Source: Pacificispira spongiicola (GTDB taxonomy: Bacteria; Pseudomonadota; Alphaproteobacteria; UBA8366; Aestuariispiraceae). Taken from it: a DNA stretch of 64,000 nt. The notes below the pieces were generated by a model. That model was given only the letters and a program-made list of their open reading frames with translations. It ran no database searches and had not been told where the DNA came from. Shown here piece by piece: positions 28,607 through 32,779 of this stretch (position 1 is its first letter; every line of letters starts with the position of its first letter). The stretch is taken from positions 310,001 to 374,000 of the forward strand of contig NZ_JABBNT010000005.1 in NCBI RefSeq assembly GCF_012926505.1, in the 5' to 3' direction. The position numbers and the translations under genes were made by a program.

Positions 28607-30064
28607 CTAGCCGTCCAGTTTCGCCTTGAGCAGCTGATTGACCATGGCCGGGTTCGCCTGGCCCTTGGTTTCCTTCATCACCTGACCGACGAACCAGCCG
28701 ATCAAGCCGGTCTTGCCGCCACGGTAGGCCTCGACCTGCCCCGGATTGTCGGCGATCAGCTTATCGACCACGCCTTCCAGCGCACCGGTATCGGAAATCT
28801 GTTTCAGACCCTTGGCCTCGACGATTTCCGACGCGCCCTTGCCGGTCTCGAACATCTCGTCCAGCACGTCCTTGGCGATCTTACCGGAAATCGATCCATC
28901 CTTGATCAAGGCCAACAATCCGCCCAGGCCCTCCGCGCCGACCTTGCTGTCGGCCAGCGTCTGGCCCGCTTCCTTCAGGCGCGCGAAGAGCTCCACCGTC
29001 ACCCAGTTGGACGCCAGTTTCGCATCGCCGCACGCCTTCGCGGCGGTTTCGAAGAATTCCGCCGTTTCCCGTTCCGCGACCAACACGCCCGCATCATAGG
29101 CGGATAGGCCATATGTCTCCATGAACCGGTGCTTTTTCGCATCCGGCAATTCCGGCAGGGTCGCCTTGCAGTCCGCGATGAACGCATCGTCGAATTCGAT
29201 GGGCAGCAAGTCCGGGTCCGGGAAATAGCGGTAATCATGCGCGTCTTCCTTGGACCGCATGGACCGCGTCTCCCCCTTATTCGGGTCGAACAGGCGGGTT
29301 TCCTGCACGATCTCGCTGCCGCTTTCGATCAGTTTGATCTGACGACGGGCCTCAACCTCGACCGCCTGCCGAATGAAGCGCAGGGAGTTGACGTTCTTAA
29401 CCTCGGCCCGCGTGCCCAGCGGACCGCCCGGCTTGCGCACCGACACGTTGATGTCGGCCCGCATGGAGCCTTCCTGCATGTTCCCGTCGCAGGACCCGAT
29501 ATAGCGCAGGATGGACCGCATCTTCGCGACATAGGCCGACGCCTCTTCCGCCGAGCGAATATCAGGCCGCGATACGATTTCCATCAGCGGCGTTCCGGCG
29601 CGGTTCAGATCGACCAGCGTCTTTTCCGGCAATTGATCGTGGATCAGCTTCCCCGCATCCTGTTCCAGGTGCAGGCGTTCAATCCCCACGGTGCGGGTCG
29701 TGCCGTCTTCCAGGTCGATCTCGATCTCGCCCTCGCCAATGATCGGCTCCTCATACTGGCTGATCTGATAGCCCTGCGGCAGATCGGCATAGAAATAGTT
29801 CTTCCGCGCGAAAACCGAATGCTTATTGACCTTGGAATTCAGGGCAAGGCCGGTGCGCACGGCCTGACGCACGGCTTCCGCATTCACGACGGGCAGCATG
29901 CCGGGCATGGCCGCATCGACCAGGGAAACCTGACTGTTCGGCTCCGCCCCGAACGTTGTCGGCGCGCCCGAAAACAGCTTGGCGTTGGACGTGACCTGCG
30001 CATGGATTTCCATGCCGATCACCACTTCCCACTCGCCCGTTTTGCCTTTGATCAAGTTGCTCAT
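28607..30064 (-). CDS. gatB: Aspartyl/glutamyl-tRNA amidotransferase subunit B
   Basis: A 485-aa GatB. The N-terminal signature [12 protein letters not shown], the catalytic-domain segments ([29 protein letters not shown]), and the C-terminal YqeY-like tRNA-binding domain ([28 protein letters not shown]) are all present. The GatCAB complex converts Glu-tRNA(Gln) or Asp-tRNA(Asn) to the amide form. ATG 30064 gives the family's usual start; the 40-residue upstream extension is not conserved in type. gatC and gatA, often next to gatB, are not in the window. Confidence 0.95.
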
Positions 30065-30157: not shown

Positions 30158-30214
30158 GTTCTGCCCGCTTGAATAGCAAATCATCCCACGTACTAATGCA
30201 AAGCGGGCAGGAAC
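30158..30214 (+). promoter_or_regulatory. Long-looped perfect inverted repeat upstream of the first membrane-protein gene
   Basis: CTGCCCGCTT (30161-30170) pairs fully with AAGCGGGCAG (30201-30210) across 30 nt. The stem extends by GTT/AAC with a single bulge (30158-30214). It lies 24 bp before the GTG start at 30239. It could be an mRNA leader structure or a DNA operator. Confidence 0.6.
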
Positions 30215-30238
30215 AGTTGAGAAAACAGGACTTACGCT

Positions 30239-31072
30239 GTGACTTTAGCAAACCAATACCGCTTTCTTGGACAGCATCCGAACGAGAGCCAAGAAGCGGG
30301 CTTTTTTGTCGATCATGACGATACAGTGATTTTCTGGCCGTCGAAACAGGCTCCAGGCTACCGCCTGTCCCTCATTGATGCATTGAAACTCGCTTGGGCT
30401 CCACTGAACGATCCCAACAAAGTAGATGATTTGTTCTCGCCGTCGAACGAAACCGAACGAAAGGCAGAAAAGTTTCGTGTTCTAAAATGGTTCCTCGGTT
30501 CAATCGCCATGATGGTTGTGTACATGGCGGCGGCAGCAGCCTTCATCCCCATCAGCGAACGAATTGCAGAACTAGTCCCAACGCTGTTTTCTCCAGCTGG
30601 TATCGTCTTCGGTACATTACTCCCGCTTTCATTCGTGTTCCCCGTAATCGCAGGTTTTTTCCAAACGCGCACCGCCAAGAAAGACGTCATACATCGACTG
30701 CATTCGTTCAAGACGGAATTGGTGAACCAACCGTGCCCGACACCAATTGTAATCCATCCCGCTTACGACGATGTATCGATAACGGACGGCGATCCCAGCC
30801 TAACGAAGTTTTGGTTGGAACGCGCTCCATTTATTGTTGCCCCTGCAGGAATTCTTATTTTCGCCTTGATTAACGACTTGTTGCCTGGTGACAGGGTCGT
30901 CGCGCTCGCAGCCGCTGCGTGGTTTTCTTGGATTCTGGCGCCCATGACATGGGCCGGGATTATTGGTGTTCGTAAGCGGGACGTCACTTTCCTTGATCCA
31001 ATGACCCACGCTGCGGCTGTGAACCATATCCGCATTACTCTGAAAGAAAATTCCGGCGACAACCCCAATTGA
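30239..31072 (+). CDS. Unrecognised four-TM membrane protein with GFFVD/WPSKxAPGY N-terminus
   Basis: A 277-aa protein I cannot assign to a family. An N-terminal cytoplasmic segment carries GFFVD (21-25) and [11 protein letters not shown] (33-43). Four hydrophobic segments follow at about 82-104, 118-141, 197-213 and 217-244, in two pairs separated by a polar loop containing PCPTP. The next gene repeats both the N-terminal motif and the two-plus-two membrane plan, so they are paralogues. It starts with GTG 30239 after AGGACTTACGCT. Base composition looks visibly richer in A and T than neighbouring genes, which hints at transfer. Function unknown. Confidence 0.7.
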
Positions 31073-31097
31073 TGTTTTTTAGCCGTCAGCAAGTCTT

Positions 31098-31154
31098 CCC
31101 CAACCGCTCGCAACGCGGGTAGAATTAATTTTATCTAAGCCGATGCGATTGGGG
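31098..31154 (+). promoter_or_regulatory. Inverted repeat that could hide the ribosome site of the second membrane-protein gene
   Basis: CCCCAACCGC (31098-31107) is complementary at nine of ten positions to GCGATTGGGG (31145-31154). The right arm includes the G-rich ribosome site directly before ATG 31160. If transcribed, the pairing would occlude translation initiation. Confidence 0.5.
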
Positions 31155-31159
31155 GAACA

Positions 31160-32779
31160 ATGTCGGAATACGGTTTTCTGGGCTTTGGGTACACCGAGAG
31201 GCAGACACACGGATTCTTCGTCGATTCCGGCAATCGGATACTCTATTGGCCGTCGAAAGAAGCGCCCGGTTATCATTTGCCCTTCTCTGTTGCCGCGCAG
31301 ATCGCCTCCCCAAGGCGAAGCGTCTGGAAAGGGAACCGCCCCCTACCGTTCGGCAGCAGTTACATGTTCGGCGTCGTGATCGCGATCGTGATTGTCGCGG
31401 CGATCGCCCTCTTTGCGCTTTTTTCCGATCCGACCCGAAACTTTATGGATTTGGTTTTTCACGGTCTTCATGATCGATATCCGGACTTTTTCAGCGAGAC
31501 GGGATCCTTTGCAGCCGTCTTTGCCGGGGTTCTCGTCGGCGCTTTTCCAATTGCCCTTGTCTTCAGGTTCTACAACCGAGTTATCGTCCGTAAAGTCCGG
31601 GAAGAACTCGACCACACACCCGGCGTTCGACGCATAGACGAGGTACGTCCGCCGGTCGTGAAACTGCGCCCTAGCGAGCTCGCTACCGCAACACCGGCAT
31701 CAGGGTGGACGCGCATCAAATTCTACTCTCTTTCACTTTTGATGCTTTTGGGCGGGGTTATCGCGACGTTTGTCGTTCTAACCAAGAGCGACATTCTCAC
31801 CGGGGATTATATCGCGGGGCTCATTTCCGGTGTGGCGCTTATCTATTTCGGCGCGGTTTGGTGTATCGCGCTTGTTCGGCGACCGTCGGTAAAGGATTTG
31901 CTGGTATATGCGCCCTCCCAAGCGGATATTGAGGCGATTTCCGATACGACACCGTCGTCTGGAGAACGGCCCGCCGTCTATGTCCCCCAACCCCGCACCC
32001 CGAAATTCGGCGCACTGTTTAAGAATATTTGGGTGTCTTGGGGTGTACCGATTATTGGCGGGCTTGCGGCCGTCGCTTTTATGCTGATCCTGCGCTATGA
32101 CCCCCAGGGTCGATATGATGCCGAAGCGGTGCTGGATTCATTTTGCCATACGGTACTTTGGGGAAATTTAGACGCCGCACCGACCGCTTGTAGCGACGTT
32201 CCCGCAAATGCAGTCCTGATCCGTTGGGAGTCTCAACCAACCATCGTCATCGATAACAAAGATGACGGTCTCAAAGGCTTCGAAAAGAATTTGCGCGGCT
32301 TCGTCGGAGATCAATTTGCCAGTATCGACCTCCCGAAACCGGCCTTCATCTCCACCACCGGCACCCCGTCCCCCTTCCTGAAATATACCATACGCCGCCC
32401 CACGCCGGACGAACCATTGTCCGGCAATCTCGCGGAATGGAGATACAGCACGCGGGGTGCCGCCTTGGCGCAACTCGACATCCAGGTAAATCTCTTTGAA
32501 GCGCGCACCAGCGAAAGAATGATGGGCGAGATGCGGCTTTCGCATCTCGCCTACGGAACCGATGCCTCCCTTATGAACGGCGATCAGTCGTATTTGCTAA
32601 ACGGGGACGTCGTCCGAACGGAAACGCTGATTCCGCTCGTCCTGTACGACAAACGTCTTCACGCCGGAATGGCCGCCGCGCAAGTGATTGCAACGGCGCG
32701 AACCATTTTCCAGGAAATCGGAATGTCTGACAGTGTCGAAAAATGGCGGGACGCGCGACGAAAGAATCAATCCCCGTAG
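31160..32779 (+). CDS. Unrecognised membrane protein, larger paralogue of the preceding gene
   Basis: A 539-aa protein. The N-terminus has GFFVD (18-22) and WPSKEAPGYHL (30-40), matching the previous gene. Membrane segments lie at about 68-88, 114-136, 189-208 and 217-240, then a fifth at about 292-313. A soluble C-terminal domain of some 220 residues follows, probably extracytoplasmic, beginning with AVLDSFCHTVLWG and holding cysteines at 329 and 344 that could pair. ATG 31160 follows GGGGGAAC. The C-terminal domain faintly resembles alphaproteobacterial secreted domains of unknown function, but I do not assign it. It converges on the NUDIX gene. Confidence 0.7.
   Translation: MSEYGFLGFGYTERQTHGFFVDSGNRILYWPSKEAPGYHLPFSVAAQIASPRRSVWKGNRPLPFGSSYMFGVVIAIVIVAAIALFALFSDPTRNFMDLVFHGLHDRYPDFFSETGSFAAVFAGVLVGAFPIALVFRFYNRVIVRKVREELDHTPGVRRIDEVRPPVVKLRPSELATATPASGWTRIKFYSLSLLMLLGGVIATFVVLTKSDILTGDYIAGLISGVALIYFGAVWCIALVRRPSVKDLLVYAPSQADIEAISDTTPSSGERPAVYVPQPRTPKFGALFKNIWVSWGVPIIGGLAAVAFMLILRYDPQGRYDAEAVLDSFCHTVLWGNLDAAPTACSDVPANAVLIRWESQPTIVIDNKDDGLKGFEKNLRGFVGDQFASIDLPKPAFISTTGTPSPFLKYTIRRPTPDEPLSGNLAEWRYSTRGAALAQLDIQVNLFEARTSERMMGEMRLSHLAYGTDASLMNGDQSYLLNGDVVRTETLIPLVLYDKRLHAGMAAAQVIATARTIFQEIGMSDSVEKWRDARRKNQSP

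Follow-up and report, generated by a model that had tools for sequence, protein, structure and literature searches.

Tandem membrane paralogues in the variable gatB-sodB spacer of Pacificispira spongiicola, one with a C-terminal domain distantly related to DUF2927

A 64,000-nucleotide stretch of the Pacificispira spongiicola genome (the window, meaning the whole of the DNA analysed) contains two adjacent genes for membrane proteins, which a first-pass annotation of the sequence assigned to no known family. Here we asked what these proteins are made of, how widely they occur and what they might do. The genes, A and B, are intact, lie in tandem on the plus strand and are flanked by gatB and a NUDIX/sodB stretch:

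30239..31072, plus strand: gene A, GTG start; 277-residue membrane protein with an N-terminal motif and four predicted membrane segments, without a C-terminal domain
31160..32779, plus strand: gene B; 539-residue membrane protein with the N-terminal motif, five predicted membrane segments and a predicted extracytoplasmic C-terminal domain
32033..32089, plus strand: fifth membrane segment of B (residues 292-310), from hydropathy
32090..32779, plus strand: C-terminal domain of B, a probable divergent DUF2927 relative, from profile comparisons and HMM scores
32812..33312, minus strand: NUDIX gene between B and sodB

The window's own genome (G000) was compared with five other members of the genus Pacificispira (G001-G005). 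We refer to the A- and B-type proteins of G002 as A' and B', to proteins of G002 and G004 that resemble the outer part of B as C' (C'4 for that of G004), and to the one family member of G004 as D.

Searches of Pfam, NCBIfam, PADLOC and PHROGs gave no family for A or B (best E-values 0.038, 0.28, 0.05 and 0.38, respectively), the best Pfam and NCBIfam matches falling under the curated cut-offs. Within their own genome, A and B retrieved just themselves and each other. Hydropathy placed the membrane segments of A at residues 85-103, 122-140, 197-215 and 220-238, and those of B at residues 70-88, 117-135, 190-208, 221-239 and 292-310; in A' three segments were above threshold and a fourth slightly below it, and D had five. 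Sequence and hydropathy agreed on the architecture first annotated, i.e., tandem membrane paralogues that have four segments in common, B having in addition a fifth segment and a C-terminal domain with two cysteines (Cys 329 and Cys 344, both within the domain). Because of the K/R-rich loops, the N-terminus and the loop between segments 2 and 3 were placed inside and the C-terminal domain of B outside, a topology predicted from simple hydropathy. AlphaFold models of B with A aligned and of the B domain alone had mean pLDDT values of 30.5 and 35.9 and were unusable for fold assignment.

Both proteins contain the motifs GFFVD and WPSK-[QE]-APGY-x-L, and BLASTP aligned their N-termini with 22 of 48 residues identical (E-value 2e-11). 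With the motif removed, the four-segment parts still matched (hhalign E-value 6e-6, probability 85, 77 columns). By these comparisons A and B are paralogues, related through both the N-terminal element and the 4-TM module. Two conserved elements were located in each protein:

30251..30412, plus strand: N-terminal element of A, NQYRFLG..GFFVD..WPSK.APGY.L, predicted to be cytoplasmic (alignment; topology from K/R-rich loops)
30737..30760, plus strand: loop element of A between TM2 and TM3 (alignment with relatives)
31160..31321, plus strand: conserved N-terminal element of B (alignment with G002 B')
31646..31678, plus strand: loop 2-3 element of B, RPPVVKLRPSE (alignment with relatives)

The N-terminal element (about 50 residues, Y-FL...GFFVD...W...PGY) has 14 invariant columns of 55 in A, B, A' and B'. 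Between the window and G002, identity over the N-terminal 54 residues is 48% for A and 52% for B, compared with about 32% for the remainder of B, so that the short motif first noted proved to be a conserved element. GFFVD...WP...APGY is recognisable in all four proteins, the version in A' reading FWAEKDGPGY, and D keeps GFF...FWP..SP with FVD and GY absent. Variants of the second element, RP-x-P-x-x-LRPSE, occur in all five family proteins and are weakest in A and B'.

The main new result is the identification of the outer domain of B as a relative of DUF2927 (PF11150). Single-protein Pfam scans returned no DUF2927 match for B (E-values up to 1) or for B', C' and C'4 (E-values up to 10), and the window's own genome had no PF11150 match at E-values up to 0.01. 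In the genomes of relatives, the DUF2927 profile scored over its cut-off in 17 of 59. Of the 24 PF11150 matches found, 13 were aligned as a reference set (L052-L064 without L055, plus L072). The 11 others were mostly short, ended at contig ends or scored below the cut-off; L055, L065 and L074 scored above it and were excluded because no clean full-length frame had been picked for them or, in the case of L065, because the match was partial. In hhalign comparisons with the 13 proteins, the B and B' domains gave an E-value of 2e-9 (probability 96, 186 columns), the four domains of B, B' and both C' proteins gave 4.9e-12 (probability 97.5, 182 columns) and C' alone matched weakly (E-value 7e-4, probability 26), each E-value referring to a single comparison between profiles built from few and closely similar sequences (effective number about 1.2-2.2). 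An HMM built from the 13 proteins gave 19.9 bits for B', 17.6 for the C' of G004, 14.4 for B and 9.8 for the C' of G002, and the best of 2000 shuffles reached 4.2 bits, the controls being shuffled domain parts and the real scores those of whole proteins. Much of the HMM signal came from the final 30-40 residues or so, and B and B' scored well there only. In the reverse direction, the four-domain profile matched ten places outside G000 and G002 among 385 genomes of the class at E-values up to 0.01; nine were above the curated DUF2927 cut-off and one was a TetR protein.

Could this similarity be a chance match of one helix segment (LYD-R-GM) and one strand (RWE), the B domain having a fold of its own? 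Single-sequence scans do miss DUF2927, and seven of the nine DUF2927 matches in the reverse search aligned over 38-43 positions near the domain end. However, in the profile comparisons both ends matched in order across 182-186 columns, all four proteins scored above every shuffle, and the nine DUF2927 proteins came from a profile search that was not biased towards that family. We therefore consider a chance match very improbable. DUF2927 and the B domain have the same order of an LxRWE strand followed by a terminal LYDxRLxxGMxxxxxxxxAR helix region, and both are likely to lie outside the cytoplasm, several DUF2927 proteins beginning with signal-peptide- or lipoprotein-like stretches (judged by eye). 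Unlike DUF2927, the B domain is under Pfam detection, has lost the catalytic-type motif, contains an extra cysteine pair and is tethered by five membrane segments. Homology of the B C-terminal domain to DUF2927 is thus well supported by the profile comparisons, at a divergence that leaves it below the Pfam membership cut-off. As to the first description of an unrecognised family, it holds insofar as A and B belong to no database family, but the C-terminal domain of B can now be related to DUF2927.

We take DUF2927 to be zincin-like from its HExxHxxG pattern. At the central helix, HExxH was found in 7 of the 13 aligned relatives and EExxQ in the other 6; the presence of both types at the same helix suggests active and altered branches of an unstudied zincin-like family. 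No credible solved relative was found with the DUF2927 profile among PDB sequences (best E-value 0.031), and no publication naming DUF2927 was found in the literature searched. The homology to HExxH-containing proteins might indicate that B itself works at the membrane as a DUF2927-type metallopeptidase with catalytic activity. However, a sequence check found neither HExxH nor EExxQ in B, B' or the two C' proteins, and we regard peptidase activity as highly improbable.

Two C' proteins were located:

G002 L007:7114-8013: C', single-TM protein, beside gatB, no Pfam match
G004 L038:830-1726: C' (C'4), single-TM protein, beside gatB, no Pfam match

Their outer domain is homologous to that of B (hhalign of the B and B' domains against it, E-value 1.4e-6, probability 90), has two cysteines and is encoded in the same chromosomal spacer. 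Cys 329 and Cys 344 of B aligned with residues 310 and 324 of B', and of the C' cysteines (76 and 86) the first one only aligned. In contrast to B, C' has one membrane segment, no N-terminal element and a native composition, and is 78% conserved between G002 and G004. Since B, B' and C' lack HExxH and EExxQ, B looks like a fusion in which a C'-type pseudo-enzyme has been appended to an A-type membrane module; in G002 these domains are also encoded separately, by A' and C'. iRhom/derlin-type pseudoproteases resemble B in being membrane proteins whose protease-like part has lost its catalytic function and which may act by binding. They belong to the unrelated rhomboid family and are eukaryotic, so that the comparison is functional only.

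The first-pass annotation had described the first gene as AT-rich. GC and GC3 were 50.8% and 54% in A and 55.6% and 62% in B, and the codon scores of A (0.447) and B (0.536) were the lowest among 26 window genes tested, compared with 0.576-0.819 for the other 24, the set being hand-chosen rather than all ORFs and some starts having been set roughly. By all three measures AT-richness was confirmed for A and extends to B. A' and B' were also AT-rich (GC3 56% and 54%, compared with 79-82% in three flanking genes), and C' and D were near-native in composition. Judged from base and codon composition, the A-B module looks foreign. The NUDIX gene had the next-lowest codon score; it may be part of the same variable segment and may have been acquired together with A and B. 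A is 28% identical to A' and B 34% identical to B', compared with 76-85% for five flanking genes.

The strongest rival to the functional reading given below is that A and B do nothing important, being genes of a single genus that evolve fast or decay in a spacer where change is tolerated. They would have arisen when a C'- or B-like gene next to gatB was duplicated locally and lost, and under weak selection their GC content and sequence would have drifted. The low identity to G002 compared with the flanking genes, the lowest codon scores and the failure to find the family in three of six genus members are all as expected under drift. On the other hand, both frames remain intact in two species at such low identity, and the invariant columns of the N-terminal element, the loop element and the cysteine pair of B and B' have been retained. 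We consider drift unlikely, yet a serious contender.

The gene order gatB, spacer, sodB, holC, pepA, lptF is kept in all six genus members, among which the spacer has five different contents:

Window: A, B, NUDIX
G002: A', C', five other genes, sodB and PhyH fragments, B'
G004: C', PhyH, flotillin and others
G001 and G003: PhyH
G005: ParDE-type toxin-antitoxin pair (L039 11527-12386)

The PhyH genes of G001 and G003 and the G002 fragment were called by eye from similarity to the Pfam-scanned G004 protein. Together with the atypical composition, this comparison of gatB neighbourhoods agrees with the initial suggestion of an inserted or variable module, and because of its site in the variable spacer the A-B module is regarded as an accessory trait. 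At L007 12813-13440 and 15250-15846 of G002, left of B', a 3' piece of sodB is joined to a PhyH-like N-terminal remnant (assigned by eye). The sodB piece is 97.7% identical to the intact copy without gaps, and the joint looks like a tandem duplication or recombination junction at the spacer. A two-gene system is weakly suggested: both types occur in two of six species, but A' and B' are about 7 kb apart in G002, and D, a distant relative, stands alone elsewhere in G004. A regex scan of the 64 kb found no GatA-type amidase motif, in line with the earlier statement that gatCA is not nearby. Such a motif was present within 1.5 kb of gatB (28607-30064 in the window) at 14 of 25 loci outside the genus and at none of five loci within it, and on these scans the separation of gatB and gatA looks like a genus trait.

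It is also conceivable that the pair is an accessory conflict module (of the phage defence or toxin/immunity type) at a hotspot, in which B would sense envelope damage or entry and A and B would act in the membrane. The variable spacer, the ParDE pair in the same gap of G005, the rapid divergence and the atypical composition are consistent with such a role. However, PADLOC and PHROGs gave nothing convincing for A, B, A', B' or C' (best E-values 0.05 and 0.032), no relative of B was found in the plasmids searched and no match of the family profile in the viral contigs searched, and no mobile gene was recognised among the immediate neighbours of A and B. A conflict module is in our view improbable.

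Five genes of the family were found, distributed over three of the six genus members (A and B in G000, A' and B' in G002, D in G004); the other three yielded none. Of 98 genomes searched with B, G002, from the same genus, was the only one with a match besides the window's own. With A and B profiles, convincing E-values were obtained in G000 and G002 only, among the candidates scored in 385 genomes of the class, and the 43 genomes of the order yielded two genes in G000, two in G002 and one, the distant singleton D, in G004; the 98-genome, class and order samples overlap, and the counts include the window's own genome. D (L136 9242-10093) adjoins aconitase B and was confirmed pairwise with its sequence unchanged (E-value 2e-6). 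It has no usual start codon where the homology begins. An extra order-level match, in G016 (E-value 0.006), sits on a DUF2927 gene. A profile of the N-terminal element alone matched only A and B convincingly in 398 genomes of the phylum, with 17 other matches at E-values of 0.0026 or worse; G002 was not among them and is presumably outside the phylum sample. Of these 17, seven were translated and proved to be unrelated proteins or else frames that were short or contained stops. A wider N-terminal motif, 'FFPWG..GRGY', had been considered for other bacteria and was dropped, as the N-terminal profile did not find it. Weak matches of the A and B profiles (E-values of 4e-4 or worse) fell mostly within membrane segments. 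In the class and phylum searches, many genomes had only part of their first-look candidates scored (e.g., 7 of 22), so a relative may have been missed. Two named genome collections gave no relative and are weak tests, since both also missed the G002 and G004 species. In the data searched, the family is, by sequence similarity, genus-restricted.

A long-looped hairpin had been proposed before each gene, and inverted repeats are present at both positions:

30161..30210, plus strand: 10-bp inverted repeat without mismatches, 30-nt loop (arms 30161-30170 and 30201-30210), lying between the starts of gatB and A, which are divergently oriented; unproven as a hairpin
31098..31154, plus strand: 9/10 inverted repeat with a 37-nt loop (arms 31098-31107 and 31145-31154); near chance

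Size-matched random pieces of the window contained repeats of the A-upstream type in 40 of 2000 cases and of the B-upstream type in 30 of 400, and folding z-scores were -2.25 (equalled by 6 of 200 shuffles) and -1.45 (equalled by 18 of 200), respectively. From these counts and z-scores, the A-upstream repeat is mildly unusual and the B-upstream repeat close to chance. In G002, no comparable long-looped helix was found upstream of A' (z +0.99), and a different 7-bp long-looped helix was predicted upstream of B' (z -0.80, the fold being no better than shuffles). Thus the repeats exist, but hairpins are not established and are mostly near chance. The right arm of the B-upstream repeat spans the G-rich, Shine-Dalgarno-like stretch of B. 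The G-rich stretches before B (31145-31160) and B' (L007 13646-13661) can each form a 7-bp pairing with C-rich sequence located some 97-100 nt further upstream, and by a crude pairing count both genes are within the top five of 46. Occlusion of the Shine-Dalgarno sequence upstream of B is a weak lead, to which the z-scores of the B and B' folds give no support.

The reading we prefer, with a probability of roughly two in five, is that B acts in the envelope, as a ligand-binding or adaptor protein, and that A is its partner. By sequence, B consists of an A-type 4-TM module joined via the fifth membrane segment to a divergent DUF2927-like domain that lacks catalytic-type motifs. According to this proposal, the two conserved elements, N-terminal and loop (RP-x-P-x-x-LRPSE), would be cytoplasmic and might bind a partner or each other, and the outer domain of B, possibly with a disulfide, may bind a peptide or polymer of the envelope and leave it uncut. 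Together, the two proteins could act as a membrane sensor or adaptor, B reading the periplasm and A serving as a partner that has no sensor. A bolder version, speculative and unlikely in its full form, is a new transmembrane sensing module, in which a duplicated 4-TM scaffold has two cytoplasmic docking elements and one copy carries a fused pseudo-zincin for sensing a ligand in the envelope. Such a module would have been assembled within one genus, at the gatB-sodB spacer, when an A-type membrane protein was combined with a DUF2927-like protein already resident there, and separate and fused forms would still coexist.

What was an orphan pair now has a testable anatomy, that of an apparently genus-restricted membrane module with a cryptic, probably non-catalytic DUF2927 relative. 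Work on B or on DUF2927 would inform an unstudied family that many relatives of this organism possess. In addition, the separate and fused domain forms found side by side at this locus may be useful for studying the origin of new membrane proteins.
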